A stretch of 64,000 bases of DNA from an uncultured Colwellia sp. (GCA_913063325.1 CAJXYE010000012.1:31769-95768); one strand, 5' to 3'; counted from the stretch's first letter, positions 1,874 to 31,671 are shown. Numbers and translations are program-made. Notes: generated by a model from the letters alone, not told the origin.

Positions 1874-2137
1874 TATACTCATGATACTTCAAAATGTCTG
1901 TTTCAGGACGCCTGAGCGATTCATGATCAAGGCGCGTATTTTATTAATGGTTGTTCCCTTAATTACATACGCAACGACGAGCATGATTTACTCAGGCGCC
2001 CCGCAAGGCGAGTTTAAAAGGCTTATATGCCGCGTTATTGATTTCGACAAGGGAACAACCACTCTCTTCAATCAAAGCCTTGCCTTTAAGCCTTTTAATT
2101 CTCGCTGAAACGAGTATTTCGAGGTAACATGAGTATA
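1874..2137. repeat. Long palindromic intergenic repeat, family 1, copy A
   Basis: 5' arm TATACTCATGATACTTCAAAATGTCTGTTTCAG pairs with reverse complement of 3' arm TATACTCATGTTACCTCGAAATACTCGTTTCAG. The inner gcgagtttaaaaggctt...aagccttttaattctcgc hairpin is shared with the copy at 19717-19980. Confidence 0.9.
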
Positions 2138-2182
2138 ACTACGCTCCACATTTTATCTTCCTATGATAGATAGTTGAAAAAT

Positions 2183-2857
2183 ATGGCTGAACAAGCAATC
2201 TTAACTGACCCAACTAAACCATCTGCGCGAAACCTCGCTTTTTTAAAAGCAGGTGCACCGATCACTATTGATATTTCCACCCCCGCCGGACAAAAAAGAA
2301 AGTTTAATACCTACTTTATCGGCTACTTACCAAAAAAATATGTATTAATCGAGTTTCCTGAAGCGTCAAAGCTGGGCAATTTTTCTCAATACATTGGTCA
2401 AGGTACTGTCATTACAGTTCGTGGTCTTATTGAAGGGCGAGATGGTGCTGCAGTTGCTTTCATTAGTAGTGTTAAGCAAACCTTGCAAATACCTTCTCGT
2501 ATTATGGTATTAGATATTCCTAATACCGTGACATTACAACAGTTACGTTCTTCTGTTCGCATTGATACGCAAATCCAAGCCAAAGTTAAAATAGATGATG
2601 TTTACTGGCAAACCACGATGAGCAACCTCTCTGTCGATGGAGGCCAACTTGATATTATTAATGGTGAGAAGCTGGTGTTGGCTGAGAATAAAGTCATTGA
2701 AATTGTCATGGAAAGAAGTGCAGGGGAAAGTTACATAAAATTTAACGCTACCGTTTGTAATATTAAGCAGCAAGTTGATGGCATATCTTTTGGTGTTAAA
2801 TTTAATAAAGTGGGTAAAGAACAGGTGATAGAGTTACTTTATCAAGCATTAATCTGA
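2183..2857 (+). CDS. PilZ-domain / YcgR-like c-di-GMP effector
   Basis: N-terminal YcgR-like flagellar-brake-type domain, then LRSSVRI and NLSVDGG elements resembling PilZ RxxxR and (D/N)xSxxG. ATG at 2183 (MAEQAILTD). Confidence 0.75.
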   Translation: MAEQAILTDPTKPSARNLAFLKAGAPITIDISTPAGQKRKFNTYFIGYLPKKYVLIEFPEASKLGNFSQYIGQGTVITVRGLIEGRDGAAVAFISSVKQTLQIPSRIMVLDIPNTVTLQQLRSSVRIDTQIQAKVKIDDVYWQTTMSNLSVDGGQLDIINGEKLVLAENKVIEIVMERSAGESYIKFNATVCNIKQQVDGISFGVKFNKVGKEQVIELLYQALI

Positions 2858-4282
2858 CACAATGCAGTTTTTTCCTTTTGACTTTGCTTTGTATAATGCA
2901 TCATCAGCACGCTTTAAAACAGTATCGATAGTATCCTCGTTAGTCACTTCCGTTAACCCTAAGCTAATGGTAACTTGTTGTTGATTAGAGCTTAATAAAT
3001 TAGTGCTGTTGGCAACTTTCGAGCGTAATTGTTCAGCAATGATTTGACCTTGATTAATATCGGTGTTGATTAAAAGTATCACAAACTCTTCACCACCCCA
3101 ACGAGCAACAAAGTCACTTTTTCTGATATTATTATTTAATGTCTCAGCCAACGATTTCAGTACTTTATCACCAACATGATGCCCTTTGGTATCGTTAATG
3201 TTTTTGAAGTTATCAACATCAATAAATATCACCGATAACGGATTGTTATTACGTTTTTTGAGTAATGAAAATTGTGCTAATTGTTCATGAAAACTACGTC
3301 TGTTAGGCAGTTCAGTTAGCTCGTCAATACTGGCCAATCGGTCTAGTTTTAAATGAATTTTTTTAACATAAAGTACAATGATCAAACTGATAAGTAAGGT
3401 GATAACAGCAGAGATGAAAATATTGAGGTAAAGAGTTTCTTTCGCTAGCTTGGTGAAGTTATTAACATTGGCTTCAACGATAAGATACAAATCTAATTCT
3501 TCAATATATTTTCTATTGAGTAAGTAAGCCTCACCAGCCTGGTTGTAATCAAAAACCTGACTGCCCTTGCCTATGATATCAGGCAGTTGATTTGCTAATT
3601 CAGGGATGTCGCTAAGGTTCTGTAACTTATTGACACTTTGTTCAGCAATCACTACTTTGCCCTTTTCGTCGACAAAATAAACAGAAAACTGATAGCGTTG
3701 CCTAAATATCTTAAGCATATCATTGATGTAAGAGGTTTTGAGCCCTATACCTGTAGCCCCGATCATATGATAATCACTATCAAGGATTTTATGGTTGATA
3801 AACATGATCAGTTCGCTGCCCATATGGGTATTATAATCAATGTTGATTTCGTTTAACTCAGGAGCTTTTTGAAAGTCAAAATACCATTGGTTATTAGGGG
3901 TGTTTTTATCAACAGTATCTAACATTCCTTTGGCTGTGTAGTAGCTTTTACTTTTTTCAGAGACTAAAAAAGCGGTGAACATTTGATATTTATTTTGAAT
4001 CGTTTCTAAGTAACGTACAATTTGTTGCACGTCATCTTCTTCATGTGATAGCCAGTCGATCAAAAAGGTATCGTGCGCCATCATCGAGGCAATGAGGTTA
4101 GGCTCGATTATATTTTTCTGAATTTCAGTATATATATTATCTATAGTGAGCGGCAGGGCGCTATTTTTTAATTGTTCACGAGTTGTTTCCATCGAGGTTA
4201 AATAGTTAATTACCGTTAAGGTGGTAGACAAGGTAAAAACTAGGGTAGTGATAATAAAAACAATTCGGTAATTAAAACGCAT
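2849..4282 (-). CDS. Sensor diguanylate cyclase (periplasmic Cache-like domain + GGDEF)
   Basis: RWGGEEFVILL (GGEEF active site), DVDNFKNINDTKGHHVGD, two TM segments flanking a ~250 aa extracytoplasmic region. Confidence 0.92.
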   Translation of the reverse strand: MRFNYRIVFIITTLVFTLSTTLTVINYLTSMETTREQLKNSALPLTIDNIYTEIQKNIIEPNLIASMMAHDTFLIDWLSHEEDDVQQIVRYLETIQNKYQMFTAFLVSEKSKSYYTAKGMLDTVDKNTPNNQWYFDFQKAPELNEINIDYNTHMGSELIMFINHKILDSDYHMIGATGIGLKTSYINDMLKIFRQRYQFSVYFVDEKGKVVIAEQSVNKLQNLSDIPELANQLPDIIGKGSQVFDYNQAGEAYLLNRKYIEELDLYLIVEANVNNFTKLAKETLYLNIFISAVITLLISLIIVLYVKKIHLKLDRLASIDELTELPNRRSFHEQLAQFSLLKKRNNNPLSVIFIDVDNFKNINDTKGHHVGDKVLKSLAETLNNNIRKSDFVARWGGEEFVILLINTDINQGQIIAEQLRSKVANSTNLLSSNQQQVTISLGLTEVTNEDTIDTVLKRADDALYKAKSKGKNCIVSD

Positions 4283-4455
4283 AATTAAGCAGTATTAGTA
4301 AATATCTAATGAAATCATAACAGTTAATTACCTTTATATCTAAATATCTAAGTATTTTGAAGTGACTTTGATAGCAGCAAGCTTTACTGAGTAGGCTTAG
4401 TCGCATTAAGTTTCAGCGAGGTCGTAAAAGATGAAATTGTATTTTTAAAATAAAA

Positions 4456-4480
4456 AAAAGCACCATTCAATGGTGCTTTT
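4456..4480. terminator. Bidirectional terminator hairpin
   Basis: aaaagcacca ttcaa tggtgctttt perfect stem with flanking A/T runs. Confidence 0.75.
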
Positions 4481-4533
4481 AATAGTATAAATCATAAAGA
4501 TAAATACTTTATCGCATTAATTAACGCTAATGA

Positions 4534-4733
4534 TTAAGCTGATTTTTTAGCTTTACGGCTAAATACAAAACCAGTAATAGCTAAGCCTAAAAAAGCGATA
4601 GAAGTAGGCTCAGGCACGTTAACGATAGGTACGTTAGGAGTGTTATCGTATGTATAAGTTACCTCAAGCAGCAGAATCAATTAGGGTAGTAAATAATGGT
4701 TGGCCGCCATCAGCAATATTAATGATAGTGGTG
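4534..4733 (-). pseudogene. Remnant of a PEP-CTERM anchored secreted protein (frameshifted, N-terminus lost)
   Basis: Minus strand reads ...LEVTYTYDNTPNVPIVNVPEPTSIAFLGLAITGFVFSRKAKKSA*, a canonical PEP + TM + basic tail. Just upstream, another frame reads IINIADGGQPLFTTLIDSAA*, as if one frameshift split the gene. No start found before xseA. Confidence 0.7.
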
Positions 4734-6068
4734 TTATATCACCCGCGCACTTAAGCGCCCATCACTAAGCTGTAAGCTGATTTCTTCGTCAGGAGAAAGT
4801 TGTGCAACTTTAGTGACGACTTCGTTTTTACTATTACGGGTAACACTATAACCCCTTGCAATTGTCGCTAGGGGGCTAACAAGCTGTAATTGTTCAATTA
4901 CGTGCACAAAGCTTTCACTTTTATGTTGTAACGCATTTTGCATCGCTTGTATGATCCTATGCTCACTTTGGCTTATGTGCTGTTGCTGTAATTGAATGTT
5001 TTTTATCGGTGATTGTTGTAATAGTCTTTGACTAAGCTGGGAGGGTTCACTCTTTATATGCAACATACTACGTTTTATCGCTTGTTTTAAACGTAGAGCT
5101 AATTCGTCAGCTTTTTGCTGCTGCAATTGTAATTGCTGTTCAGGGTGAACTTGCGACAAGCGGTGCTGAAAATAGTCTTGTTTACTCGTTAAAGAAGCTA
5201 ACTTCCCTTGATGGGCTTTTATCAGGCGTTGTTTAAGCATTAATACTTGATTCAGTAACTCACTACTATCACTAGATACTAACTCGGCTGCAGCGGACGG
5301 TGTAGGGGCACGTAAATCGGCGACATAATCACTTAGCGTAGTATCAATTTCATGACCCACAGCGCTAATGATAGGTAATACACTTTGATAAATAGCATGA
5401 ACGACACTTTCTTCATTAAATGGCCATAAATCTTCTAATGAACCACCTCCTCGACCAACAATGAGTACATCACACTCTTTACGGATGTTGGCAGTCTCAA
5501 TAGCATGACAAATATCACCCTTTGCATATTCTCCTTGAACAAGAGCAGGATAGATAATTGCTTTTATATTGGGGTTTCGGCGTTTAAGTACTGATAAAAT
5601 ATCTTTAACAGCTGCGCCAGTAGGAGAGGTTACTATACCAACGCAGGCAATGTGTTTAGGTAGTGGTTTTTTATTGGCTAAATCAAAGAGTCCTTTAGCG
5701 TTTAAGCTGTTTTTAAGCTGCTCGTATTGCTGACGAAGCATACCTGTGCCAGCATCTTCCATATGTTCAATGATTAATTGAAAATCACCTCGAGGTTCAT
5801 ACAAAGAAACTTTTGCTCGAACCAATACTTGTTGGCCATTAGAGGGAGAGGCACCAGTACTTAATCGTACGCGCCTATTACTGCCTTTAAACATGGCACA
5901 TTTAACTTGTGACTTTGCATCTTTTAATGACAAGTACCAATGACCCGAGCCAGCAGCAATAAAATTAGATATTTCACCAGTTAACCAGACAGTATTTAGT
6001 TCACTTTCTAAAATGAAGCGCACTTTTCTCGTTAATTCGCTAATTTGTAAAATATGCTGTTGGGTCAT
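4734..6068 (-). CDS. xseA: Exodeoxyribonuclease VII large subunit
   Basis: N-terminal OB fold (VWLTGEISNFIAAGSGHWYLSLKDAKSQVKCAMF), GRGGGSLEDLWPFNEE, AVGHEIDTTLSDYVADLRAPTPSAAAEL. Confidence 0.97.
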   Translation of the reverse strand: MTQQHILQISELTRKVRFILESELNTVWLTGEISNFIAAGSGHWYLSLKDAKSQVKCAMFKGSNRRVRLSTGASPSNGQQVLVRAKVSLYEPRGDFQLIIEHMEDAGTGMLRQQYEQLKNSLNAKGLFDLANKKPLPKHIACVGIVTSPTGAAVKDILSVLKRRNPNIKAIIYPALVQGEYAKGDICHAIETANIRKECDVLIVGRGGGSLEDLWPFNEESVVHAIYQSVLPIISAVGHEIDTTLSDYVADLRAPTPSAAAELVSSDSSELLNQVLMLKQRLIKAHQGKLASLTSKQDYFQHRLSQVHPEQQLQLQQQKADELALRLKQAIKRSMLHIKSEPSQLSQRLLQQSPIKNIQLQQQHISQSEHRIIQAMQNALQHKSESFVHVIEQLQLVSPLATIARGYSVTRNSKNEVVTKVAQLSPDEEISLQLSDGRLSARVI

Positions 6069-6424
6069 AATGCCGAGGTAATGTTTTTTAGTATTGATAG
6101 GCAGCTAGTATATCAAGTCTATTAAAATAATATCGAACTCATCATGATAATATCATAAGCCTCACCTCTAGTGTTTAGCGACTTTTTTAACTTTTTATAC
6201 TTTCTTGTCATACAGCTATTTAGTTGACATACCTGTCAATAATTAGCGTTTTTGACGTTAAATCAAATTATATTCTAATAAAAAATGTATTTCGGCACTA
6301 TTTTTGCGTTGTTTTATAGCGAGTTGATAAAATTTATAAAAATAGGTTTACCTAAAACAATAAAACGGTTAAAATTCTGCCGCAATATTCACTCCCTAAC
6401 CAACCTTTTTAGAGAGATGTTGCG

Positions 6425-7897
6425 ATGCTAAGAATTGCCCAAGAAGCTTTAACTTTTGATGATGTATTACTTGTACCTGCTCATTCAAAAGTACTCCCAC
6501 ACACGGCTGATTTAAAAACTAAATTAACCCGTAAAATTGATTTGAATGTACCTTTGGTTTCTGCGTCTATGGACACAGTAACAGAAGCACGCCTAGCGAT
6601 TAAGCTAGCGCAAGAAGGCGGTTTAGGTTTTATTCATAAAAATATGACCATTGCAGAACAAGCGAAAAACGTTTGTAAAGTAAAGAAATATGAAAGTGGT
6701 ATTGTTTCAGATCCTGTCACAGTAAGTACGGACTTTACTATTGAACAAGTCATGCACAAAGCTGATGACTTAGGTTTTTCAGGTTTTCCTGTTGTTGATG
6801 ATAAAAACAATCTAGTCGGTATCATTACTGGCCGTGATTTACGTTTTGAAACAGACTTAACTAAATCAGTTTCTTCACTTATGACAGTGAAAGAAGACTT
6901 AATCACGGTGACAGAAGGTGCTGCACGTGAAGAAATTTTGGGCTTAATGCATACTAACCGTATTGAAAAAATATTAGTGGTAGATGATGCCTTTAAGTTA
7001 GTCGGTCTTATCACAGCAAAAGATTACCAAAAGGCTGAGAAAAAGCCTGATGCGTGTAAAGATGAGTTAGGTCGCTTACGTGTTGGTGCTGCTGTTGGTG
7101 TTGGCGCAGGAACTGACGAGCGTATTGATGCATTAGTTACTGCCGGTGTTGATGTTTTATTAATTGATACCTCCCATGGTCACTCTCAAGGGGTTATTGA
7201 CCGTGTAAGTGAAACCCGCCAAAAATACCCAGATTTACAAATCATTGCAGGTAACGTTGCAACAGCTGCAGGCGCAAAAGCATTAGCCGATGTTGGTGTT
7301 GATGCAGTTAAAGTCGGCATAGGCCCTGGTTCAATTTGTACTACGCGTATTGTTACCGGTGTTGGTGTGCCACAATTAACCGCTATTTCAAATGCGGTAG
7401 AAGCATTAAAGGGCACAGGCATTCCTGTTATCGCGGATGGTGGTATACGTTTCTCAGGTGATATTGCGAAAGCACTTGTCGCGGGCGCACACTGTGTCAT
7501 GGTTGGTAGTATGTTCGCTGGTACTGAAGAGTCACCAGGTGAAGTTGAGCTTTACCAAGGTCGTTACTACAAATCTTATCGAGGCATGGGCTCTTTAGGT
7601 GCTATGGCTCAAAAAGATGGTTCAAGTGATCGTTACTTCCAAAAAACTGATGGTGAAGCAGATAAATTAGTACCAGAAGGTATTGAAGGGCGCGTTGCTT
7701 ATAAAGGCCCAGTTTCAGCTATAATTCATCAGCAAATGGGTGGTATACGTTCATCAATGGGCTTGACCGGTTGTGCCACTATTGAAGAAATGCGTACTAA
7801 ACCACAATTTATGAAAATTACATCAGCGGGCATGGGCGAGTCGCATGTACATGATGTGACTATCACCAAAGAAGCACCTAACTATCGTATGGGCTAG
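6425..7897 (+). CDS. guaB: Inosine-5'-monophosphate dehydrogenase
   Basis: [12 protein letters not shown], tandem CBS domains, [22 protein letters not shown] active-site loop, [10 protein letters not shown]. Confidence 0.98.
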
Positions 7898-7987
7898 TTT
7901 TACTTTGTATTTTGCACGATAAGGGCATCAGAAGTGCTCATTGACTAACGTCAACTCTGCGCTTCTTTTTTCTTATCGAGTAAAACT
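7896..7987. repeat. Long hairpin, family 2, copy 1 (after guaB)
   Basis: Outer agttttact / agtaaaact, middle cgataag / cttatcg, tip ctcattgactaacgtcaactctgcgc; core shared with 9708-9827. Confidence 0.7.
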
Positions 7988-8046
7988 ACTTTGTAAAACC
8001 ATTATTGGTTGCTTTCTAAAGACGTAATAGTAAAAGAAATTTTGTC

Positions 8047-8077
8047 AGGCTGAACTATGAGTTAATTAGTTCAGCCT
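8047..8077. terminator. Hairpin between guaB and guaA
   Basis: aggctgaact ... agttcagcct stem followed by gtttattta. Confidence 0.6.
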
Positions 8078-8131
8078 GTTTATTTATATATAGCTCTAAA
8101 TTAATGAGCCGCTAAAGGTAGGAAAACACAC

Positions 8132-9709
8132 ATGAGCAAAGACATTCATGACCACCGCATACTAATATTAGATTTTGGTTCTCAGTACACTCAACTTATT
8201 GCACGTCGCGTACGTGAAATTGGTGTTTACTGTGAGCTTTGGTCTTGGGACGTAACTGAAGAGCAAATTAAAGGCTTTAACCCAACAGGTATTATTCTTG
8301 CTGGTGGTCCAGAGTCTGTAACTGAAGAAAATTCTCCTCGCGCTCCTGAATATGTTTACACTGCAGGCGTACCTGTATTAGGTATCTGTTACGGCATGCA
8401 GACTATGGCTGAGCAACTTGGCGGTGGTGTTGAAAGTTCGAGTCATAAAGAATTTGGTTATGCAGCAGTTGAGTTAATTGCAAAATCAGCATTATTCAAC
8501 AAAGTTGAAGACAGCATTGGTGATAACGGTAATGCGTTACTTGACGTTTGGATGAGCCATGGCGATAAAGTGTCAGCGATCCCTGAAGGCTTTGTAACTG
8601 TTGCACAAACACCAAGTTGTGCTTTTGGCGCAATGGCCAACGAAGATAAGCAATTTTACGGCGTTCAGTTCCACCCAGAAGTGACTCATACTAAACAAGG
8701 TTTACGTATTTTAGAAAACTTTGTTGTTGATATCTGTAAATGTGAAAAGTTATGGACTTCAGCATCTATCATTGATGATGCTGTTGCTAAAATGAAAGAG
8801 CAAGTAGGTGACGACGAAGTTATTCTTGGTCTTTCTGGCGGCGTAGATTCATCTGTTGTGGCGATGTTATTACAACGTGCAATTGGCGATAAGCTTACTT
8901 GTGTATTTGTTGATAATGGTTTACTTCGTTTAGACGAAGGTCAGCAAGTAATGGATATGTTTGGTGATCATTTTGGTTTAAATATCATTAAGATTGATGC
9001 TGAAGATCGTTTCCTTGATCGTTTAGCTGGGACAAGTGAGCCAGAAGCGAAACGTAAAATTATCGGTAATGTATTTATTGATGTTTTTGAAGAAGAGTCT
9101 AACAAATTAGAAAATGCTAAATGGTTAGCGCAAGGTACGATTTACCCTGATGTGATTGAATCAGCAGCTTCAGCTACTGGTAAAGCACATGTAATCAAAT
9201 CTCATCATAACGTTGGTGGATTACCAGATTACATGAAGTTAGGCTTAGTAGAGCCATTACGTGAATTGTTTAAAGATGAAGTACGTAAAATTGGTCTAGA
9301 GCTAGGTTTACCTTACGATATGCTTTATCGTCACCCGTTCCCTGGGCCAGGTCTAGGTGTACGTATTTTAGGCGAAGTGAAAAAAGAATATGCTGACTTA
9401 TTACGTCGTGCAGATGCTATTTTCATTGAAGAGCTTCACAAGCATGACTTATACACCAAAGTTAGCCAAGCATTTACCGTATTTTTACCCGTTAAATCGG
9501 TAGGCGTTATGGGTGATGCACGTAAATATGATTGGGTTGTCTCTTTACGTTGTGTTGAAACAATCGACTTTATGACCGCGCGCTGGTCACATTTACCATA
9601 CGATTTCTTAGGGTTAGTTTCTAACCGTATCATCAACGAAATTGAAGGTATTTCACGCGTAGTTTACGATATATCTGGAAAACCACCTGCGACAATAGAG
9701 TGGGAATAA
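8132..9709 (+). CDS. guaA: GMP synthase (glutamine-hydrolysing)
   Basis: GATase domain ([15 protein letters not shown]), ATP pyrophosphatase [15 protein letters not shown]-terminus [13 protein letters not shown]. Confidence 0.98.
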
Positions 9710-9827
9710 TTTAGTTTTAGACTAGTTAAATCAAACAACTTCGTTGTCGAAGGTACTCACTGACTAACGTCAGCTCCGTGCATTCTCCTAGAATTTGATT
9801 GATTTTCCGTCGCCTAATAACTAAATT
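9708..9827. repeat. Long hairpin, family 2, copy 2 (after guaA)
   Basis: Outer aatttagtt / aactaaatt perfect; tip ctcactgactaacgtcagctccgtgc matches the guaB-downstream copy. Confidence 0.65.
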
Positions 9828-9853
9828 CAGCGCTTAAAGAATATATTTTTGAT

Positions 9854-9889
9854 AAAGCCCCAAGGTTGAGAAACGTTGGGGCTTTTTTT
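9854..9889 (+). terminator. Intrinsic terminator
   Basis: aaagccccaa ... ttggggctttttttt stem with T-run. Confidence 0.8.
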
Positions 9890-10034
9890 AACCATAACCC
9901 AACAAGGAGCTCAAACTAGTTGGGGTTTTAGCAAAGCTGTTGAGCCTTTTTTTTCTGAGCATATGACTATATGTGATGAAAGAAAATGCGATAACAATGC
10001 CGCTAAAATTTCAAATAGGAAGAGCCTATACACA

Positions 10035-10382: not shown

Positions 10383-10585
10383 CTACTGACGATACTTCGC
10401 TTTACACTAAAGCGGAGTAACTTCCCTCAATGACACTATCCCCCAATATCTTAAATACATCAATTTTAGCTTGAATCTTTGACTGTCAAAGCAGTAACAC
10501 AGTATATTACCGCCAATTGAGCTGGCATATAATTATGTGCAAACAAATAACAATAATAAAAGCTATTACTGCTACAGGAAATCAA

Positions 10586-11983: not shown

Positions 11984-11996
11984 CGGAGTTAGTTCT

Positions 11997-18085: not shown

Positions 18086-19717
18086 ATGAGAGCAACTAAG
18101 CGCATTGCAGATGCAACGCAAGAGTCTTTACATCGAATTTTTACCATTGCTGAAGCCCCTGATTCTACTTTGGGGCGTCTTGAGCAAGAAATGTCGCAAA
18201 ATTTGGTTGGTTTTTTGAACAACCATATTGTTGCCAGTAAAAATGCTTTAACGGATATTGAGCAAGATTTTATTAATCCTCATATTCCAGAGCAGCCTGA
18301 ATTTGTATCTGATCATATGCATCACTTGCTCGATAAATTAGTCGCGCAATCAGTACATACTTCAAGCCCCAGTTTTATTGGTCATATGACCTCAGCGTTA
18401 CCTTCATTTATTTTACCGCTATCTAAGTTGATGGTGGGATTAAATCAAAACTTAGTTAAAGTTGAGACCTCAAAAGCTTTTACACCACTAGAACGTCAAG
18501 TTTTAGGCATGATGCATAATTTGGTCTATCAGCAGAATGATGATTTTTATCAAAATTGGATGCATAGCGCTCAACATTCACTGGGCTCTTTTTGCTCTGG
18601 TGGTACTGTCGCAAATATTACCGCTTTATGGGTGGCACGAAATAAGCTGCTACAAGCCGATGGTGACTTTAGAGGTGTGGCGCGAGAAGGTTTGCATCGG
18701 GCTATGAAGCATTATGGCTATCAAGACTTAGTGATTTTAGTGTCAGACCGTGGTCATTATTCACTGAAGAAATCTTCTGATATTCTTGGTATAGGCCAAG
18801 AGAATGTTATTGCTATTCCTACTGACGAATATAATAAGATAGATTGCAAAAAGCTAGTGGCAAAGTGTCAGCAACTTAGTGAGCAAAATATTAAAGTACT
18901 CGCTATTGTTGGCGTTGCTGGTACCACTGAGACGGGGAATATTGACCCCCTTGATAAAATGGCTGAAATTGCTCAGCAATACCAGTGTCATTTTCATGTT
19001 GATGCCGCTTGGGGCGGGGCAACATTGTTATCAAACAAATACCGTCCATTACTTAAAGGCATCGAACAAGCCGACTCAGTGACCATTGACGCTCATAAAC
19101 AGATGTATGTGCCTATGGGGGCAGGTTTAGTTATTTTTAAAGACCCTGCGTCTGTGAGTGCCATTGAACATCATGCAGAATATATTCTGCGTAAAGGCTC
19201 AAAAGATTTAGGTAGTCATACCCTAGAAGGTTCACGCTCGGGTATGGCGATGTTAGTGTATGCAAGTTTGCATATCATTAGCCGACCAGGTTATGAAATG
19301 TTAATTAATCAGGCGATAGAAAAAGCCGAATATTTTGCACAACTGATTAATCAGCATGACGACTTTGAGCTAATTACTCGTCCAGAGCTTTGTTTGCTAA
19401 CGTATCGTTACGCACCTAAGTCAGTACAGGTTTTGTTGGCTCGAAATGACGATGAAGCGAATAAATCTCTGAATTTGTTGCTGGGTAAATTAACTAAGTT
19501 TATTCAAAAACGCCAACGTGAAGATGGCCGCTCTTTTGTTTCTCGTACGCGTATTGAAGTGAGCCGATACGGTGGTGAAAAAGTGATTGTCTTTAGAGTT
19601 GTGTTAGCCAATCCGTTAACCACGAAAGAAATTCTTCAAGATATCTTAGAGCAACAATGTGAATTGGCGAAAGAAAGTGAGAACTTTTTACCTGAATTAC
19701 TGACAATGGCAGAATAA
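18086..19717 (+). CDS. panP: PLP-dependent decarboxylase, probable aspartate 1-decarboxylase PanP type
   Basis: Group II decarboxylase fold: SGGTVANITALWVARN, HVDAAWGGATLLSNKYRPLLKGIEQADSVTIDAHKQMYVPMGAG (PLP lysine); length and N-terminus resemble the PanP family. Confidence 0.75.
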   Translation: MRATKRIADATQESLHRIFTIAEAPDSTLGRLEQEMSQNLVGFLNNHIVASKNALTDIEQDFINPHIPEQPEFVSDHMHHLLDKLVAQSVHTSSPSFIGHMTSALPSFILPLSKLMVGLNQNLVKVETSKAFTPLERQVLGMMHNLVYQQNDDFYQNWMHSAQHSLGSFCSGGTVANITALWVARNKLLQADGDFRGVAREGLHRAMKHYGYQDLVILVSDRGHYSLKKSSDILGIGQENVIAIPTDEYNKIDCKKLVAKCQQLSEQNIKVLAIVGVAGTTETGNIDPLDKMAEIAQQYQCHFHVDAAWGGATLLSNKYRPLLKGIEQADSVTIDAHKQMYVPMGAGLVIFKDPASVSAIEHHAEYILRKGSKDLGSHTLEGSRSGMAMLVYASLHIISRPGYEMLINQAIEKAEYFAQLINQHDDFELITRPELCLLTYRYAPKSVQVLLARNDDEANKSLNLLLGKLTKFIQKRQREDGRSFVSRTRIEVSRYGGEKVIVFRVVLANPLTTKEILQDILEQQCELAKESENFLPELLTMAE

Positions 19718-19980
19718 TACCAATTTGATTAAATTTCTTCCCTACTCAGAGCTACATTGATGAGCTTAAAACAAACAAAATTTATTAAACATAGTCATTC
19801 TATATTTAGTTCATTTTGTGACGTTATCAGTTTATCAATGAGCTCCCAAGGGCGAGTTTAAAAGGCTTATATGCAGCGTTATTGATTTCGAGAAGGGAAT
19901 AACCATTCTCATCAATCAATGCCTTGCCTTTAAGCCTTTTAATTCTCGCTGAGTGGGAAAGAACTTAATCAACTTGGTAT
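19717..19980. repeat. Family 1 repeat, copy B
   Basis: 5' arm ATACCAATTTGATTAAATTTCTTCCCTACTCAG versus reverse complement of 3' arm ATACCAAGTTGATTAAGTTCTTTCCCACTCAG; inner arm nearly identical to copy A. Confidence 0.92.
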
Positions 19981-20052
19981 AATTACTGTTTCTTAGATAA
20001 TCTGTTTACGGGTAAATCGCTATATATTTAGGGCGGGTCAGTCAAAGCAAAC

Positions 20053-21319: not shown

Positions 21320-21585
21320 TATACCCGCTCCACTTGAATATGCAGGATTCAGCTGGAATTATAAACGCCTTTAGGCAAGGCATTGATTGAAGAGAATAGT
21401 TATTCTATTGTCGAAACCAATAACGTCGCATAAAGCGCTTATAAACCAGCCCTTTGGGGAAAACTGAGCAAAACATACTTGTCGTTACATTTGTTTTAAG
21501 GGAATGACCCTTAACAAAAAAATGTGCCTAGATTATGATTCGCTCAGATTTCCTGAAACGAGCATCTTCAAGTGGAACGGGTATA
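21320..21585. repeat. Family 1 repeat, copy C (opposite orientation to A/B)
   Basis: 5' arm TATACCCGCTCCACTTGAATATGCAGGATTCAG versus reverse complement of 3' arm TATACCCGTTCCACTTGAAGATGCTCGTTTCAG. Confidence 0.92.
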
Positions 21586-23076: not shown

Positions 23077-23208
23077 CTCAATAATAGTTACGGTTTTTAT
23101 TCAAGACAGAGAGCGAATCAGGTGTTTGTAAATATGGATACAATTAGTTACTCGTTTTAGCATATCTTCTGATAAACTAGCGATAATTTTATTAGTTAAT
23201 GCACGCTT

Positions 23209-23754: not shown

Positions 23755-23788
23755 AGTCAGCAGTAAGTGAAGATGAAGTAATATTTCT

Positions 23789-24658
23789 ATGGTTAAACAA
23801 GCATTTATTCGGTTATCTAACCCTAAATTTATCGTACTGTTTTTAGTCGTATGGGCGTGCTTACTGTTGAGCTCTAGTTATGCGCTGAACGAACTAGCTG
23901 ATTATAGTTTGTTTACCTTTTTAGGTACTCTAGGTGCTATTTTTGCCAATTCAACAGGGGCTGGTGGTGGTGTGGTGTTTATTCCCATGTTCACTCAGCT
24001 TAACTTTACCGAGCAACAATCAATAGCAACAAGCTTTGCGATTCAATGTTTTGGCATGACCGCCGGAGCTGTGACTTGGTGGCACCATTATAAAACAGAA
24101 AAAACTGAGCTACGTTTATGGCAAGGCTTTAAACGTATCATCTGTGTAACCACTGTTGCATCTGTTATTGGCTTGTATGCAGTCTTTTACTTCCAAACTA
24201 ATTCGCCAGCAGCTTTGCATATTAGTTTTAGCTGGTTTTCAGTGCTATTAGGTTTTTTCATCATATTGACCATCTATTTACTGCAACCACACCGAGAGCG
24301 TAGCCAGTTATATTATGTTGACTATATTGCACTGGTGATGATTGGTTTTTTTGGTGGTGCTGTTACCGCTTGGTTAAGTGTTGGTGTCGGTGAGTTGTTA
24401 GTTATTTATCTGCTGCTACGTCATTTTGATATTAATATGGCGGTAGCTGCAGCGGTTATTGTATCTGCTATTAGCGTTTGGGCGGCAATTGGTCAAGTTA
24501 GTCATGACGTTTATTGGCAAGTAGTTTTATTTGCTGGCCCAGGGGCTGTATTAGGCGGTATCTTTGCTAAAACAGTAGTCACGCATTTATCAGCAACTAA
24601 GCTTAAATTATTTTTTGCATCTTGGTTGTTGATAAGTGGCGCCGTAGGGTTAAGTTAA
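23789..24658 (+). CDS. TSUP-family (TauE/SafE-like) permease
   Basis: Multi-TM; LGAIFANSTGAGGGVVFIPMF and GFFGGAVTAWLSVGVGELLVIYLLLR repeats. Confidence 0.82.
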   Translation: MVKQAFIRLSNPKFIVLFLVVWACLLLSSSYALNELADYSLFTFLGTLGAIFANSTGAGGGVVFIPMFTQLNFTEQQSIATSFAIQCFGMTAGAVTWWHHYKTEKTELRLWQGFKRIICVTTVASVIGLYAVFYFQTNSPAALHISFSWFSVLLGFFIILTIYLLQPHRERSQLYYVDYIALVMIGFFGGAVTAWLSVGVGELLVIYLLLRHFDINMAVAAAVIVSAISVWAAIGQVSHDVYWQVVLFAGPGAVLGGIFAKTVVTHLSATKLKLFFASWLLISGAVGLS

Positions 24659-24700
24659 CTTGAGTTAAGTAAAGGAAAAATGATCTGTTACAAGTCTTAA

Positions 24701-24715
24701 TGAGAGTTATTCTCA
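24701..24715. promoter_or_regulatory. Fur-box-like site
   Basis: TGAGAGTTATTCTCA resembles the 7-1-7 TGATAATnATTATCA core; ~65 bp upstream of the iron transporter start. Confidence 0.6.
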
Positions 24716-24780
24716 AAAACCTTGACAGCTTTTACTGTGCTTGTACAATTCGACCACAGTATTTTATGGAGACACTAATT

Positions 24781-25803
24781 ATGTTGAAAAAATTGATTAA
24801 TACCTCACTTGTTGGCTTACTTTTAACCGCTAGTTTTATGACAAGTTTTATTGCCGATGCTAGTGAAGGAGTGAATGTTTACTCTTACAGACAACCTTTT
24901 CTTGTAGAGCCTTTGTTTAATAAATTTACCGAGCAAAGCGGTATTAAAGTGAATGTCGTTTTCGCTAAAAAAGGCATGGCTGAACGTTTAGCGCGCGAAG
25001 GCAAATATAGTCCTGCAGATATATTACTCACTACAGATATTAGTCGTTTGATTGAATTACGTGATAAAGACCTAGTGCAACCAGTTAACTCGTCAGTTTT
25101 AAGTAACGCGATCCCTAAACAATATCAAGCACAAGACAATACTTGGTTTGCCTTAACTACACGCGTCCGTAATATCTACTCTGCGAAACGTTTAGGTAAG
25201 ATTGACCTGAATTATGAAGACTTAGCCGATGAAAAGTATAAAGGTCGTGTTTGTACACGCAGTGGTAAACACCCCTATAATGTTGCCTTAGTTGCTTCTA
25301 TGATCAGTGAACATGGTGAAGCTTACACATTAGATTGGCTAAAAAAGGTGAAGAATAATTTAGCACGTAAACCCCAAGGTAGTGATCGCGGTCAAGTACA
25401 AGCAATTCATCAAAAACTGTGCGATATTTCTTTAGGTAATAGTTATTATTTTGGCAAAATGCTAAAAGATGAAAAACAAAAAGTTTGGGCTGATGAAGTC
25501 TACATTAACTTCCCTAACCAAAAAAATCGTGGTGCCCATATAAACATATCGGGTGTTGCTATGGCTAAATACGCGCCTAATGCAAAAAATGCTCAAGTGT
25601 TAATGGAATTCTTAGTTTCTAAACCTGCGCAAGCATTATATGCACAAACGAATATGGAATATCCTGTTCGAGAAGATGTTGCAGTATCGAAATTAGTCGA
25701 TTCTTGGGGGAGTTATAAAGCAGATGCCTTACCATTAGAAGAGATTGCGAAAAACCGTAAAGCAGCATTAAAGCTATTAGACCAAGCACAGTTTGATTTG
25801 TGA
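24781..25803 (+). CDS. Fe(3+) ABC transporter, periplasmic substrate-binding protein (FbpA/FutA type)
   Basis: Signal peptide; VNVYSYRQPFLVEPLFNKFTEQSGIKVNVVFAKKGMAERLAREG; C-terminal NMEYPVREDV. Likely start ATG 24781. Confidence 0.88.
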   Translation: MLKKLINTSLVGLLLTASFMTSFIADASEGVNVYSYRQPFLVEPLFNKFTEQSGIKVNVVFAKKGMAERLAREGKYSPADILLTTDISRLIELRDKDLVQPVNSSVLSNAIPKQYQAQDNTWFALTTRVRNIYSAKRLGKIDLNYEDLADEKYKGRVCTRSGKHPYNVALVASMISEHGEAYTLDWLKKVKNNLARKPQGSDRGQVQAIHQKLCDISLGNSYYFGKMLKDEKQKVWADEVYINFPNQKNRGAHINISGVAMAKYAPNAKNAQVLMEFLVSKPAQALYAQTNMEYPVREDVAVSKLVDSWGSYKADALPLEEIAKNRKAALKLLDQAQFDL

Positions 25804-27428
25804 TAGCACTGTATAACAGTAGATCATGGAAGTTATCTAGCTATTTAATTGCACTGGTATTGATAGTGCCAGTGGTTGTTATGCTAGTCGGCGGCGTAAG
25901 TACTTCAACGCAGCTGTTTGTTCATTTATGGCAAACAGTGCTGCCAAGTTATCTTGAAAATACTTTATTACTCGCTTTTTGGGTGGTGTTATTGGCGTTG
26001 TTTTTTGGCGTGTTTAGTGCAGCCATCATTACGCAAACCAATATTGTATTTAAACAACAGCTACGTTGGTTGTTACTTTTACCTTTAGCTATGCCCGCGT
26101 ATTTAGTTGCTTACCTTTATACCGACCTATTTGATTACGCAGGTCCAGTTCAGCGTGCTTTAAGAGCATGGTTTGATTGGCAATCGCCAGACGACTATTG
26201 GTTCTTTGATATTCGTACCTTACCCGGCGCTGCTTTAATGCTAGCACTGGTGTTATTTCCCTATATTTATATGCTTACCCGTGGCGCTTTTGAGCAGCAA
26301 GATCAAAACTTAACGCGTGCGAGTCGATTACTCGGCTTAACAGCAAAGCAAAGTTTCTTTAAAATAGCCTTACCCCTAGCAAGGCCCGCTATTGCAGTTT
26401 CGGCTAGCCTTGTCTTAATGGAAACCCTAGCTGATTTTGCAACCGTACAATACTTTTCTGTTAATACACTAACAACTGCTATTTATGATACTTGGCTTGG
26501 TTATGGCGATTTGGGAGCGGCTAATGCGTTAGCCAGTGTTTTAATGCTTTTAGTGTTATTTGTTGTGTTAGCAGAGCAACGAAGTAGGGCAGGGTTACGT
26601 CACCAAAGCGCTAGACCTAACTTAAATAGAGAGCTGATAAAGTTGTCTGTGATCCAACAATTTATGGCGAGTATTTTTTGCTGGGCATTAGTTATTTTGG
26701 GTTTTTTACTGCCGTTAACCTTATTAATCATTATGGCTGTGCAATACAGCGATGTGGCACAATTATCGGTGTTAATCTCTACCGGCATCAATTCATTAAA
26801 AATTTCAGTTATTGCGGCAACGGTTGCTGTATTGATTGCTTTATCTTTGGGTCTATATCAGCGTTTACACAGTGATAAATACCGTCATCTTCCACAGCAA
26901 ATTTCTGGTTTTGGTTATGCTATACCAGGCACTGTACTCGCTATGGCTATGCTATCGACGTTAGGACCTTTAGACCATTGGCTCAACGGAGTTGTTGAGT
27001 TTTTTGGGGGAGTAGCTCCAGGACTGATTTTATCGGGCTCTCTGTTTGCTATTATATTTGCGCTAGTAGTACGTTTTTCAGCTATCGCTAATGGCACTAT
27101 TATGAGCGGTATAAAGCAAATCCCTCAATCACTTGATTATGCACCAGCGTCTTTGGGAGTAAATCTGAAGGGAAGTTTAGTTAAAGTACATTTGCCTATT
27201 TTAAGGCCCGCAATAATAGTTGCATGGTTATTAGTTTTTGTTGAAGCAATGAAAGAGTTACCGGCAGTATTGTTGCTACGACCGTTTAATTTTGAAACCT
27301 TAAGTAGCCAAATTTATCAGCTTATTTCTGATGAAATGTTAGAGCAAGGTGCTTTAGGCGCAATTCTCATCGTGTTGTTTGGTCTGTTACCTATAATAAT
27401 CCTGAATAAGAGCAAGGAAAAAGTATGA
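25800..27428 (+). CDS. Fe(3+) ABC transporter permease (FbpB type)
   Basis: Two fused permease halves with EAA-like motifs (ASRLLGLTAKQSFFKIALPLARPAI; APASLGVNLKGSLVKVHLPILRPAI); overlaps upstream stop. Confidence 0.88.
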   Translation: MIALYNSRSWKLSSYLIALVLIVPVVVMLVGGVSTSTQLFVHLWQTVLPSYLENTLLLAFWVVLLALFFGVFSAAIITQTNIVFKQQLRWLLLLPLAMPAYLVAYLYTDLFDYAGPVQRALRAWFDWQSPDDYWFFDIRTLPGAALMLALVLFPYIYMLTRGAFEQQDQNLTRASRLLGLTAKQSFFKIALPLARPAIAVSASLVLMETLADFATVQYFSVNTLTTAIYDTWLGYGDLGAANALASVLMLLVLFVVLAEQRSRAGLRHQSARPNLNRELIKLSVIQQFMASIFCWALVILGFLLPLTLLIIMAVQYSDVAQLSVLISTGINSLKISVIAATVAVLIALSLGLYQRLHSDKYRHLPQQISGFGYAIPGTVLAMAMLSTLGPLDHWLNGVVEFFGGVAPGLILSGSLFAIIFALVVRFSAIANGTIMSGIKQIPQSLDYAPASLGVNLKGSLVKVHLPILRPAIIVAWLLVFVEAMKELPAVLLLRPFNFETLSSQIYQLISDEMLEQGALGAILIVLFGLLPIIILNKSKEKV

Positions 27429-28540
27429 CCGTGTTGTTAACTACCCAGCCACCTATAGAGTCACCAGTCTTGTTATCTATCAAACAGCTTTGTGTAACGC
27501 TGCAAGATAAAGCGGTTTTATCTACATTGGATTTAACGCTTAATGAAGGAGATATATTAGGTCTGGTTGGTGCTAGTGGCTGTGGAAAAACAACCTTACT
27601 TAATGCTATTGCTGGTTTTAGTAAACCGAGCAGGGGGCAAATAACCATTGATAGTAATGTGCTGAGTGATGGGGACCACAGTGTACCAGCAGAAAAACGT
27701 CAGGTAGGCATGATTTTCCAAGACTATGCCTTATTCCCACATTTAACTGTAAAAGAGAATATTGCTTTTGGCATTGCAAAGTTAAGTAAGGCCGAGCAGA
27801 AACAACAAATAGAGCAGTTACTGGCCATATTAAAGCTAAATGATTACGGTGATAGTTATATTCATCAGCTTTCCGGTGGACAGCAACAACGTGTTGCCAT
27901 TGCACGAGCTTTAGCGCCAAAACCTAAATTACTTTTACTTGATGAACCCTTTTCAAATATCGACGCTCGCCTTAGGAATGAATTGATGGTCGAGATAAGA
28001 TTGTTATTAAAGCAGTTTAAAATGACCGCTATTTTTGTAACCCATAACAAAGATGAAGTATTTACCTTTGCAGATAAAATGGCAGTAATGGCACAAGGTC
28101 GGTTATTACAATTAGATGCCCCTAGTATTATTTGTCAACAACCCAATAGCTATCAGGTTGCAGATTTTTTACAGCTTGGCAGTTGGTTACCTTGCAAAGT
28201 TAATTCAGCTGGTGCGCATAGTTTGTTAGGCGATCTTGAAACCGAGTCGATAAAGGGGGAGAAATCACGGTTATTATATTTGTTAATAAAACCTCAGCAA
28301 CTAACCTTAACGGCAAAGGTAGATGATAAGAATATAGCGAATGCACAAGTTGAATATATTAGTGTTACTGAGCAGGGCTATCATTATTATCTACGTAGTA
28401 TCAACTCACCTTCAGCCGATAGCGCATTAGCATTTAACAAAATAAGCTTATACAGTAATGTGGTACTGACAATAAATCAGCAGGTTTTGGTACTTATAAA
28501 GCCCCATGACTTAATATTCTTCGAGCGTAACCCCTTGTAA
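27425..28540 (+). CDS. ABC transporter ATP-binding protein (FbpC type)
   Basis: Walker A GASGCGKTTLL, LSGGQQQRVAIARAL, LLLDEPFSNID, C-terminal TOBE-like region. Confidence 0.9.
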   Translation: MTVLLTTQPPIESPVLLSIKQLCVTLQDKAVLSTLDLTLNEGDILGLVGASGCGKTTLLNAIAGFSKPSRGQITIDSNVLSDGDHSVPAEKRQVGMIFQDYALFPHLTVKENIAFGIAKLSKAEQKQQIEQLLAILKLNDYGDSYIHQLSGGQQQRVAIARALAPKPKLLLLDEPFSNIDARLRNELMVEIRLLLKQFKMTAIFVTHNKDEVFTFADKMAVMAQGRLLQLDAPSIICQQPNSYQVADFLQLGSWLPCKVNSAGAHSLLGDLETESIKGEKSRLLYLLIKPQQLTLTAKVDDKNIANAQVEYISVTEQGYHYYLRSINSPSADSALAFNKISLYSNVVLTINQQVLVLIKPHDLIFFERNPL

Positions 28541-28665
28541 AAGGGTATGTAATTTTAACGGTGCAAGCTGTTACAGTTCCTTTACAACACCTTACAGTCT
28601 CTTTAATACTTTGCTTTTATAATTTACTTATCAAATCAAAGTCGTTTAATTTTAAGGAGTCTGTC

Positions 28666-29436
28666 ATGACACCAAGTATAGAGCTTGTTGATAATACACA
28701 ACCACCTGAAACTAACCTAAATAATGAGTTACCGAATAAATTATTGCTGATTGAAAATGATCACTACTTAAGTAAGGCTTTTGCGGAGAAGGGTAAGCAA
28801 TCTAGCTACCAAACCATGAAAGTATGTACGGGTGAAGTGCTGAGTCAGAAGTTGAAAAGCTATTTAGTAGACCAAAAGCCTAATATGATAGTGCTATATG
28901 TTGGCTTTTCTGATAGCTCACAGTTGCTGATAATAAGTGATCTTCGGGCCTTATTTGATGGCCTATTAGTCATTGTATCGAATAAAAATAGTGAACAAGA
29001 GCAATTTAATGCGTTCAACCTTGGTGCTGATGATTATTTGATTAAGCCCATCGATAGTCGAATCTTAATGATGCGAATTGAAGCTTTATTTCGTCGTCAA
29101 AGCAATAAAGTGAATCCCGTTGAGTTAGCTAGTTTAGCAATTGGTGATGTTTGCTTACAGCCTAAATCTCAAAAGTGTTTTATTAATGGTGAAGGAGTTA
29201 AGCTAACGACCTTTGAATTTAATTTATTAAAATCGTTAATAGAGCATCAAGGGCTAATTTTATCTCGAGATCAACTTTATAGTACCTTGCTTAGACGTGT
29301 ATATAATGGAGTCGAACGTACGCTTGATGTCAGAATGTCACAATTACGTGAAAAACTGACTGTAGCAGGTATGAAGAAGAATCAAATAGAAACTGTTTGG
29401 GGTCAAGGTTATATGTTTAACAATATTAGCTCTTAA
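28666..29436 (+). CDS. OmpR/PhoB-family response regulator, orphan, atypical receiver
   Basis: Receiver-like LLLIENDHYLSKAF ... LGADDYLIKPI; winged helix LTTFEFNLLKSLIEHQGLILSRDQLYSTL...RTLDVRMSQLREKL. Start ATG 28666. Confidence 0.85.
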   Translation: MTPSIELVDNTQPPETNLNNELPNKLLLIENDHYLSKAFAEKGKQSSYQTMKVCTGEVLSQKLKSYLVDQKPNMIVLYVGFSDSSQLLIISDLRALFDGLLVIVSNKNSEQEQFNAFNLGADDYLIKPIDSRILMMRIEALFRRQSNKVNPVELASLAIGDVCLQPKSQKCFINGEGVKLTTFEFNLLKSLIEHQGLILSRDQLYSTLLRRVYNGVERTLDVRMSQLREKLTVAGMKKNQIETVWGQGYMFNNISS

Positions 29437-29455
29437 ACTTTCACTGCTCAGTAAA

Positions 29456-29489
29456 AATTTAGTGGAGGAATAACACCTCCGCTAAAATT
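29456..29489. terminator. Hairpin downstream of the response regulator
   Basis: aatttagtggagg aataaca cctccgctaaaatt. Confidence 0.6.
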
Positions 29490-29522
29490 GAACAACTGGG
29501 ACATCTTAGCTACTTTCTAGTA

Positions 29523-29786
29523 TATACCCGCTACCATTCAAGATGCAGGTTTCAGAGTGCTTGATAAATTTTAATTCAAGGCGCTGTGATGAAAGAATGG
29601 TTATTCCATTGTAAGTCACAGCAACGATGAAGTAATGTTGCTCAAGCTCTTCTTCGATGGGGTTAAAATGACTTTACACCGCGTTAAATAAAAAAAACAT
29701 AGAATAACTATGCTTTACTTATTTTACTTGTCTAAAGCCATTTTAATTCCCACTGAAATCCTGTACTTTGATTGGTAACGGGTATA
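29523..29786. repeat. Family 1 repeat, copy D
   Basis: 5' arm TATACCCGCTACCATTCAAGATGCAGGTTTCAG versus reverse complement of 3' arm TATACCCGTTACCAATCAAAGTACAGGATTTCAG. Confidence 0.88.
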
Positions 29787-29855
29787 AATAAATAATAGCT
29801 TTACCTTATTATTTGTTTTTTCTGTATACTCGCCCATAATCTTTTTTAGCTATCT

Positions 29856-30599
29856 ATGCTGGAGCTTTCTTTGCTAGCAGTAATACGCGTTTTCCTAATG
29901 ATCTTAGCCTTGGTTGTTATTTGCACTATCTCTATTGTTTATTGCTTATTACGCCCTTTTCACCGTAATAATGTTTATCACACCTCACGATATTTAGGGA
30001 AAATCCCGACACTTCTTGGTGTAGAAGTGGAAGTAAGAATTCCTGAATCTGTTAAAAATATTGGTCCTGTTGTCTGGGCGGCAAATCATCAAAATAGTTA
30101 TGATCTGTTTACTCACGCGAATGCCGTACTGCCTGGTACCGTGAGTGTAGGCAAAAAGAGTTTAAAATGGATTCCTTTTTTTGGGCAAATGTATTGGTTA
30201 ACCGGTAATATTTTAATTGACCGAAAAAATACCAGTAAGGCAATGAACACCATTGACTTAACCGCGGATAAAATAAAAAAAGATAAACTTTCTGTATGGA
30301 TGTTTCCTGAAGGTACTCGTAGCCGAGGCAGAGGTTTATTACCATTGAAAACCGGTGCTTTTCGCACTGCTATTCAAGCGGGAGTGCCTATTGTACCAAT
30401 TTGTGCCAGTAATCAAGTAGGGACAATTAACTTGAACCGTTGGGATAATGGGAAAATAATCATAGAGTTCTTAGACCCCATTCCGCTTAATGATGCAAGC
30501 CGCGAAAACTTAAGGTCAATAGTAAATGAAACTCATAAATTAATGTATAATAAAATCGAGACGTTATCGATTGAAGCCGCGGCTTACCATAACAAATAA
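29856..30599 (+). CDS. plsC: 1-acyl-sn-glycerol-3-phosphate acyltransferase
   Basis: AANHQNSYD (NHx4D-like) and MFPEGTRSRGRGLLPLKTGAF motifs. Confidence 0.88.
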   Translation: MLELSLLAVIRVFLMILALVVICTISIVYCLLRPFHRNNVYHTSRYLGKIPTLLGVEVEVRIPESVKNIGPVVWAANHQNSYDLFTHANAVLPGTVSVGKKSLKWIPFFGQMYWLTGNILIDRKNTSKAMNTIDLTADKIKKDKLSVWMFPEGTRSRGRGLLPLKTGAFRTAIQAGVPIVPICASNQVGTINLNRWDNGKIIIEFLDPIPLNDASRENLRSIVNETHKLMYNKIETLSIEAAAYHNK

Positions 30600-30627
30600 C
30601 CCCGTTGTTTATAAACAGAGATAGGTA

Positions 30628-30984
30628 ATGAAAATGATTGATGAAGAATTACAACAATGGTTTAGCCATACTGAAATGTTAATTTCTGAGTTGCTTGAAG
30701 ACGGTACTAATGAGGAAGTTTATCACACGATTGAACATCATTTTGCTAGTAGTGATTTTGATTTGCTCGAAAAAGCCGCTATCGCAGCTTTTAAATTAGG
30801 ACTCGAAATTGAAGAGCCCGAAGAGGCAGAATTAGAAAATGGTGATAAAGTCTTTGCTTTTGATATTGCTACCGAACAAATGTTAGATGTAGATTTAATC
30901 AAAAAAGAAACTAAAGCTATGTTTGAGCTGGCAAAAAAGTGTGGTGTTGACTATGATGGTTGGGGTACTTACTTTGAAGAATAA
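30628..30984 (+). CDS. rraB: Ribonuclease E inhibitor RraB-like protein
   Basis: Acidic ~118 aa; C-terminal ELAKKCGVDYDGWGTYFEE typical of RraB/YjgD. Confidence 0.85.
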   Translation: MKMIDEELQQWFSHTEMLISELLEDGTNEEVYHTIEHHFASSDFDLLEKAAIAAFKLGLEIEEPEEAELENGDKVFAFDIATEQMLDVDLIKKETKAMFELAKKCGVDYDGWGTYFEE

Positions 30985-31145
30985 TGCTTTAAGTATATTT
31001 TAATACTCTAAGACTTGAACACGTGTACTAAATACCTTAAAATATGCGACATTATTAGCCAGTATGATGTTTTTCTGGCTCACTAGCACTGAAAAGTGTA
31101 AGCTGATATTTGACGTTTTAGTACACTTATAAAGGAAATCAAACC

Positions 31146-31301
31146 ATGGAATGGCTTAGCAGAACGCTTTCACAAGAACCTACTCTACTCGCACTGTCAA
31201 TAACGGTTATCGTAACTGTTTTTATTTTTTCAGCAAGAAAAGCACATTTAAATCATTTAGCTAAAATGAAAAAAATTAATGATAGCTTTAACGTCAAATA
31301 A
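31146..31301 (+). CDS. Small single-TM protein (51 aa), hypothetical
   Basis: ATG behind aaaggaaatcaaacc; MEWLSRTLSQEPTLLALSITVIVTVFIFSARKAHLNHLAKMKKINDSFNVK*. Absent from the ORF track (below its length cut-off). Confidence 0.6.
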   Translation: MEWLSRTLSQEPTLLALSITVIVTVFIFSARKAHLNHLAKMKKINDSFNVK

Positions 31302-31415
31302 AAATTGATGTACTTAGGTTACGCTTCTACTCTCAAAGTTTTTCTTTTCCTTTCTCTTCTTATATTTCGACATAAAAAATCACACTATAATAGTGTGAGC
31401 TTTAAACGTAATCTT

Positions 31416-31671
31416 ATACCAATCCATCTAAGAAAGTGATCGTTTAGCGAGAATTTAAAGGTTTAGAGGCAAGGCATTTATTGCCAAGAAGAGTTTTTAA
31501 ATCAATAATGCAGCATATAAGTCTTTAAAACTCGCCCTTCGGGAACGCATTGGCATCATGATAAATGCACAAAATTTGTTTGATGTAGAGTAACTATATC
31601 AACACATATTTTGCTTTTTCTCATATCGCCAATGCCGTTCTAAGTGGTCACTTCTTTAGATGGATTGGTAT
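31416..31671. repeat. Family 1 repeat, copy E
   Basis: 5' arm ATACCAATCCATCTAAGAAAGTGATC versus reverse complement of 3' arm ATACCAATCCATCTAAAGAAGTGACC; inner arms gcgagaatttaaaggttt / agtctttaaaactcgc and gaacgcattggc / gccaatgccgttc. Confidence 0.92.

Follow-up and report, generated by a model that had tools for sequence, protein, structure and literature searches.

Why should the two ends of a short repeat match each other within every copy and differ from one copy to the next? This question is raised by five intergenic elements in a 64,000-nucleotide stretch of DNA from an uncultured Colwellia sp. (GCA_913063325.1 CAJXYE010000012.1:31769-95768), and the whole stretch is called the window here. 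A previous sequence-only reading had described five copies of 264, 264, 266, 264 and 256 bp, with ends that are nearly reverse complements within each copy and arm sequences that differ between copies, and all of this was observed again; the five copies represent five arm subfamilies. They are located, none with an assigned strand, at 1874-2137 (copy 1; TATACTCATG arms, TA at each outer end), 19717-19980 (copy 2; ATACCAATTTGATTAA arms), 21320-21585 (copy 3; TATACCCGCTCCACTTG arms, TA at both outer ends), 29523-29786 (copy 4; TATACCCGCTACCATTCAAGATGCAGG arms, TA at both outer ends) and 31416-31671 (copy 5; ATACCAATCCATCTAAG arms). We consider it probable that they belong to a high-copy family of non-autonomous inverted-repeat transposons (miniature inverted-repeat transposable elements, MITEs) of Colwellia with ERIC-type termini, in which a transposase supplied in trans and folded internal hairpins would both have a role. 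The twin-hairpin layout, insertion at T-A-containing targets, recent amplification and intergenic placement are shown or strongly supported by the results below.

Twin hairpins and covariation of paired positions

On either strand, the whole element is predicted to form two long hairpins of ~90 nt and a short linker, all enclosed by an arm stem. The parts are arranged as arm, hairpin (sense +), short linker, hairpin (sense -) and arm, and the two hairpins carry the same motif on opposite strands. The sequence-only reading was right about the pairing of the arms, but the two internal hairpins, which are the main paired feature, had escaped it. A covariance model was built from 29 hairpins of both element halves and several classes, and an AAGG/AACG motif was used to choose these training hairpins. 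In the window, the model matched nine of the ten hairpins, all inside the five copies and at no other place, and the order was + then - in each copy where both hairpins were matched. In copy 1, the motif was matched at 1915-1990 (+; 72.0 bits, E 3.9e-17; among the training sequences) and 2019-2095 (-; 69.2 bits, E 2.5e-16), and in copy 2 weakly at 19759-19834 (+; 17.8 bits, E 0.053; fold predicted) and strongly at 19863-19939 (-; 82.4 bits, E 5.1e-20). The matches in copy 3 are at 21363-21439 (+; 68.8 bits, E 3e-16) and 21469-21544 (-; 61.6 bits, E 3.2e-14), and those in copy 4 at 29564-29640 (+; 75.2 bits, E 5e-18; in the training set) and 29668-29743 (-; 58.9 bits, E 1.7e-13). Copy 5 was matched at 31457-31524 (+; 35.7 bits, E 5.4e-07; fold predicted), and its second hairpin, predicted by folding, was missed by the model. 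Because most window hairpins resemble the training sequences, the window scan tests specificity more than sensitivity. The model also matched a ~159-bp single-hairpin class that was absent from training (E 1e-7 to 3e-6), which is a stronger test of the hairpin model than the window copies, and 12 of 14 sequences of this class fold better on the AAGG-to-AACG strand. Such ~159-bp relatives, with ATACCAA arms, occur in several Colwellia genomes (for example, G010:C12 67369-67528 and G024:C4 60282-60439).

Covariation was strong in the hairpins. In the 29 hairpins, 91.0% of cells were paired, compared with 37-46% when the structure was slid by 1-3 columns; double changes were found at 21 of the 23 pairs, and the covariation score was 0.733 versus 0.223 in shuffles. 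A tree-based null of the R-scape kind was then applied to whole elements, in which Fitch substitutions were redistributed over the tree in 30 simulations and an average product-corrected (APC) G statistic was used. With ~34,000 pairs tested in each class, four pairs were significant in 60 TATACCC-type copies and five in 72 ATACCAA-type copies; all of them lie inside consensus helices, and no significant pair was found outside. When the test was limited to helix pairs, 14 (TATACCC) and 13 (ATACCAA) pairs were significant, distributed as 6 and 6 in the arms, 3 and 0 in the first hairpin, and 5 and 7 in the second hairpin. The proposal that pairing is conserved beyond shared descent is borne out by these pairs. 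The further suggestion of selection on a folded structure gains support from the covariation of the hairpins, for which structural constraint is supported by the alignments, but the arms alone cannot separate folding from fit to a shared transposase. Arm covariation needs no folding, because two inverted ends that bind the same transposase have to match in any case, and the case for folding is stronger in the internal hairpins than in the arms.

The kind of mismatch tolerated also differs between hairpins and arms. On the sense strands of the hairpins, G.T mismatches outnumbered A.C mismatches at 25:11 columns (+) and 34:18 columns (-), with p of 0.03-0.04 each, whereas the arms had no G.T excess (17:24). 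In each of the six hairpin classes the sense fold was the more stable one, and in four the difference was significant. These results are a hint, not proof, that the hairpins may act as single strands of fixed polarity and that the arms may be read as duplex.

Subfamilies and the origin of matched arms

For each arm type of the window, sister copies whose arms are identical or almost so are present elsewhere, and discrete arm subfamilies are common to several Colwellia species. In one ATACCAA subfamily, 15 copies carry the same four left/right arm mismatches over 17 positions. Judging from these alignments, arm variation between copies is largely, not wholly, subfamily variation. The sequence-only reading had held that discrete families with fixed terminal inverted repeats (TIRs) would speak against its interpretation, and the discrete arm subfamilies common to several species count in part against it. 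It had named a lack of covariation beyond phylogeny as a second counter-argument, and here covariation was found. One explanation of this pattern is that of ordinary MITE subfamilies, in which separate founders had fixed ends for distinct transposases and the covariation would reflect subfamily descent plus trivial end matching. The arm types shared by several species, the different target duplications of the two classes and the arms without G.T bias agree with it, and so do the arms of copy 4's group, which recur in other families of the order with 88-100% identity over 24-37 bp and with an interior that is often unmatched. However, internal hairpins that covary at 21 of the 23 pairs and beyond the tree-based null are left unexplained, as are interiors common to different arm classes, on which arm types switch yet stay matched. 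We judge this explanation to be quite improbable.

Copy 1 is a mosaic: its hairpin at 2019-2095 is of the ATACCAA class, its other hairpin and its arms are of the TATACCC class, and the arms are matched as TATACTC at both sides. Modules recombine between classes, as this copy shows. Copies of ~313 bp carry about 50 extra bases at the hairpin tip, after GGTT(A/G)TTC (for example, G000:C11 92388-92699, in the window's own genome, G000). This ~50-bp tip module (AGGAGAATAAGCTCCTGCATTCTCTAAGAAGCTACATCCATGTAGCGTC type) contains a short stem of its own, whose two sides also change together (CTACATCCATGTAG, CTGCATCCATGCAG, CTATATCCATATAG).

The order in which changes occur was examined in pairs of copies, which are not independent of each other and which gave the same trend in arms and hairpins. 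In pairs diverged by less than 4%, changed helix pairs were one-sided in 151 of 153 cases, and the changed arm pairs comprised 30 one-sided and 0 double changes. The share of double changes was about 6-14% at 4-8% divergence and about 20-35% at 8-15%, and beyond 15% it reached about half to 60% in most helices (19% in the ATACCAA first hairpin); in the arms it was ~60% at 15-30% divergence. This order agrees with mutation and later compensation in lineages that presumably keep moving, not with arm copying, and helix pairs covary beyond the tree-based null through one-sided mutations that are later matched on the opposite side. The idea that one arm is regenerated or copied from the other, also raised by the sequence-only reading, does not hold in view of this. 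It would require a hairpin or template-switch process (quasi-palindrome correction, or transposition that templates one arm from the other) restoring complementarity with no selection on folding. In C3:119422-119685, an own-genome member of the main ATACCAA subfamily, the two arms are perfectly homogenised, whereas its sisters keep fixed left/right differences, and arm conversion may thus happen rarely. As a general mechanism, arm copying was rejected in view of the order of single before double changes and of the 15 copies that spread with an identical set of four arm mismatches, and the internal loops also remain unpaired; we give this explanation almost no weight.

Movement, placement and proposed mechanism

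Target duplications and empty sites in sister strains, which the sequence-only reading had singled out as informative, were both found. First, a sister species (G010) keeps the empty site of copy 3 as ATATC-CA-TGCTTTAC, and the window has its filled counterpart, ATATC-[TATACCC...GGGTATA]-TGCTTTAC, which is consistent with a TA duplication at this one site. In the TATACCC class, TA is present on both sides in 63 of 76 copies. Second, the flanks of the ATACCAA class were TTA/TTA in 29 copies, TAA/TAA in 31 and crossed in 2 (Fisher 2e-15), and this excess of matched flanks (60 versus 2) indicates a 3-bp TWA duplication around an element that itself reads TACC...GGTA. Copy 2 has the duplication TAA at 19715-19717 and 19980-19982, and copy 5 has TTA at 31414-31416 and 31671-31673. 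Third, seven sister species have the orthologous gap without copy 2, and copies 95-99% identical to copy 2 are present at several other places of its own genome (98% in another species); these near-identical relatives within the genome point to recent movement. The elements are short and non-coding, with inverted ends, target duplication, dispersed copies and empty sites, which are general features of MITEs, and their assignment to non-autonomous transposons is strongly supported by these comparisons.

The family is abundant in this cold-sea bacterium. In the first 1.14 Mb sampled of the own genome, where other copies were gathered from stretches of its contigs, we found 84 loci with similarity (about 74/Mb, or about 360 related loci when extrapolated to the 4.88-Mb genome), 42 of them 260-279 bp in length, and 60 arm-paired candidates. 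With such numbers, the five window copies are not a matter of chance. Close relatives of the window genome carry the same elements, and a conserved 33-bp hairpin piece gave 80 loci among the matches listed, all in Colwellia or Alteromonadaceae records; both results place the window in the genus Colwellia. A copy-4-type consensus gave no match in plasmids and phages, and an Rfam scan of the window gave no family at the gathering threshold. As many as 82 of 83 copies lie between called open reading frames (ORFs), while ORFs make up 84% of the DNA. ATACCAA-class insertions can hit TAA stop codons, with the 3-bp duplication restoring the stop, in the window and in own-genome copies; for example, the left TAA of copy 2 is the stop codon of the gene at 18086-19717. 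Two elements of different subfamilies abut in the own genome (G000:C3 113058-113369 and 113368-113632) with the common junction GGGTATATACCC, as if the TA end of one had served as the insertion site of the other. A separate inverted-repeat family of 268-329 bp with TAGGGTCTGTTGATCTTTC ends is also present there (C1 42443-42710, C7 31213-31482 and C18 68676-69004).

The placement of the elements bears on another explanation, that of host-level RNA elements, in which a transcribed repeat would act on the processing or stability of neighbouring mRNAs and host selection would keep the fold. Strong folds are predicted on both strands, and copies are close to stop codons: a copy lies within 20 bp of 21 of the 67 flanking gene 3' ends, but of only 8 of the 91 gene 5' ends. 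An effect of ERIC on upstream mRNA has been reported in Yersinia, according to a review (PMC2229807, citing De Gregorio 2005). However, TAA stop codons are among the TWA targets, which may explain part of the 3'-end excess, and about 74 copies per Mb occur in all gene contexts and are present or absent between sister species. Fresh copies gather unpaired changes, and one transcript would carry only one of the opposite-sense hairpins in sense; for the same reason, it is disfavoured that selection acts on one RNA transcript alone. We regard a host-level role as the source of the fold as very improbable.

For such bacterial repeats in general, transposase-driven movement is still without experimental support, according to a review (PMC2229807). 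In the sampled DNA, no arm pair flanking a gene within 5 kb was found. In the own genome (87.6% complete), Y1_Tnp (RAYT) gave 0 matches, as it did in several other element-carrying Colwellia genomes, and no DDE_3 (IS630) gene was found; RAYT/REPIN and IS630 were rejected on these own-genome results. The own genome has only one DDE_Tnp_1 gene, which is flanked by inverted repeats of another kind (CAATGTCATTAACTTAAG); it was rejected as the mobiliser, being part of an unrelated insertion sequence. This transposase gene (1688-2839 of locus L311, G000:C31:35500-40000; relatives L312-L326) is present in most Colwellia genomes at low copy number. For each of the gene families Y1_Tnp, DDE_3 and DDE_Tnp_1, two or more of the element-carrying Colwellia genomes lack it.

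In the MITE explanation that we prefer, a transposase acting in trans would read both arms as duplex DNA, and both arms would have to fit the same protein, which would make them change together as subfamilies diverge. One hairpin per end would be needed folded in a single strand, of DNA or RNA, for copying. Only lineages that restore pairing would keep spreading, and insertions that no longer move would gather unmatched changes. We also propose, tentatively and as a rather unlikely extension, that the duplex-read ends and opposite-sense single-strand hairpins provide a folded handle for each end, that these handles are exposed on opposite strands and recognised in single-stranded form, as DNA or RNA, while the element is copied, and that ERIC-type elements are generally moved by such a structure-reading enzyme and not by an ordinary TIR-only transposase.

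Several points weigh against the MITE explanation as a whole. The invariance of the AAGG/AACG motif is there by construction, because the motif picked the training hairpins. The tree-based null is our own implementation and ignores recombination between elements, which occurs, as in mosaic copy 1. There is only a modest polarity bias (p 0.03-0.04 per hairpin) among copies that are related, HP2 of class C has no clear polarity bias (24/44), and fold stability and pairing alone would not show a folded form in cells. The TATACCC duplication is only 2 bp and, except at one empty site, is inseparable from a fixed TA target. Mobilisation in trans is deduced indirectly, because no transposase was found.

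Relation to ERIC and other known repeats

ERIC repeats became known around 1990. ERIC/IRU/RU-1 occur in Enterobacteriaceae and Vibrionaceae, and Photorhabdus has 711 ERIC copies according to PMC10969869. The E. coli ERIC starts with TATACCCGTCATATTTCAAGCTGCAG (PMC2759123), and its left end is identical to the best Colwellia arm at 22 of 27 positions (shuffle mean maximum 16.0, p<0.0005) and its right end at 20 of 27 (p 0.0135). This terminal match holds for the TATACCC classes and not for the ATACCAA class, and the arm group of copy 4 is nearest to the ERIC end. TATACCC...GGGTATA termini and TA at the ends are shared with ERIC, which makes TA duplications and is also non-coding, intergenic, high in copy number and stably folded. 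ERIC arms are likewise matched at both ends, as TATACCC/GGGTATA in E. coli and TATACTC/GAGTATA in Salmonella (PMC2759123 Table 1a), and this matched change in ERIC itself rests on two published sequences. In contrast, ERIC is 127 bp with one hairpin, the Colwellia elements are 256-266 bp (or ~313 bp) with two hairpins, and the ATACCAA class duplicates 3 bp (TWA), not TA. Among the 331 loci fetched, the E. coli locus alone had the exact ERIC core 20-mer, the core gave 0 matches in the window with up to 3 mismatches, and the Colwellia hairpin model gave no match on E. coli ERIC; membership in ERIC proper was rejected on the basis of these searches. By these comparisons, the family appears to be an ERIC-ended relative that shares the ends and way of life of ERIC and not its core, and is not ERIC. 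The earlier view of the elements as undescribed stands to the extent that the literature searches made gave no paper on such elements in Colwellia, and it fails for the termini, which are those of ERIC.

Other palindromic repeats share single features with the family. In REPINs, an inverted pair of structured units also moves as an entity, and compensatory changes in their hairpins have been reported (PMC3116915). REPINs move without target-site duplication, unlike the Colwellia element with its target duplications and long inverted arms. Correia/NEMIS repeats of Neisseria have TA termini, long terminal repeats and a longer and a shorter form, set apart by ~50 bp of internal sequence (PMC2229807), comparable to the 264- and ~313-bp forms in Colwellia; compared by description, they differ in length and form a single stem-loop of their ends. 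In CIR of Caulobacter/Brucella, a linker likewise connects two long inverted repeats (PMC2229807). By description again, CIR differs in having no outer arm stem from its two ends. Duplication of TA is known for IS630 and of TWA for PIF/Harbinger, and the TA flanks or TWA duplications seen here resemble the duplications of RUP/IS630-type and PIF-Harbinger/IS5-type MITEs. The difference here is the own genome without a DDE_3 gene and the sampled DNA without a TIR-flanked gene.

In conclusion, this Colwellia family combines ERIC-type ends, high copy number, recent movement, empty sites, two duplication classes and strong internal-hairpin covariation, and with these features together the roles of arm sequence and of folding become testable separately. 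It separates three ideas raised by palindromic repeats, namely descent, arm copying and structural constraint, and we believe that it can be a rich natural data set on the movement of ERIC-type repeats and the function of their folds. Compared with ERIC-like MITEs, what appears to be new is a core of two hairpins in opposite sense, together with a second class that duplicates TWA.

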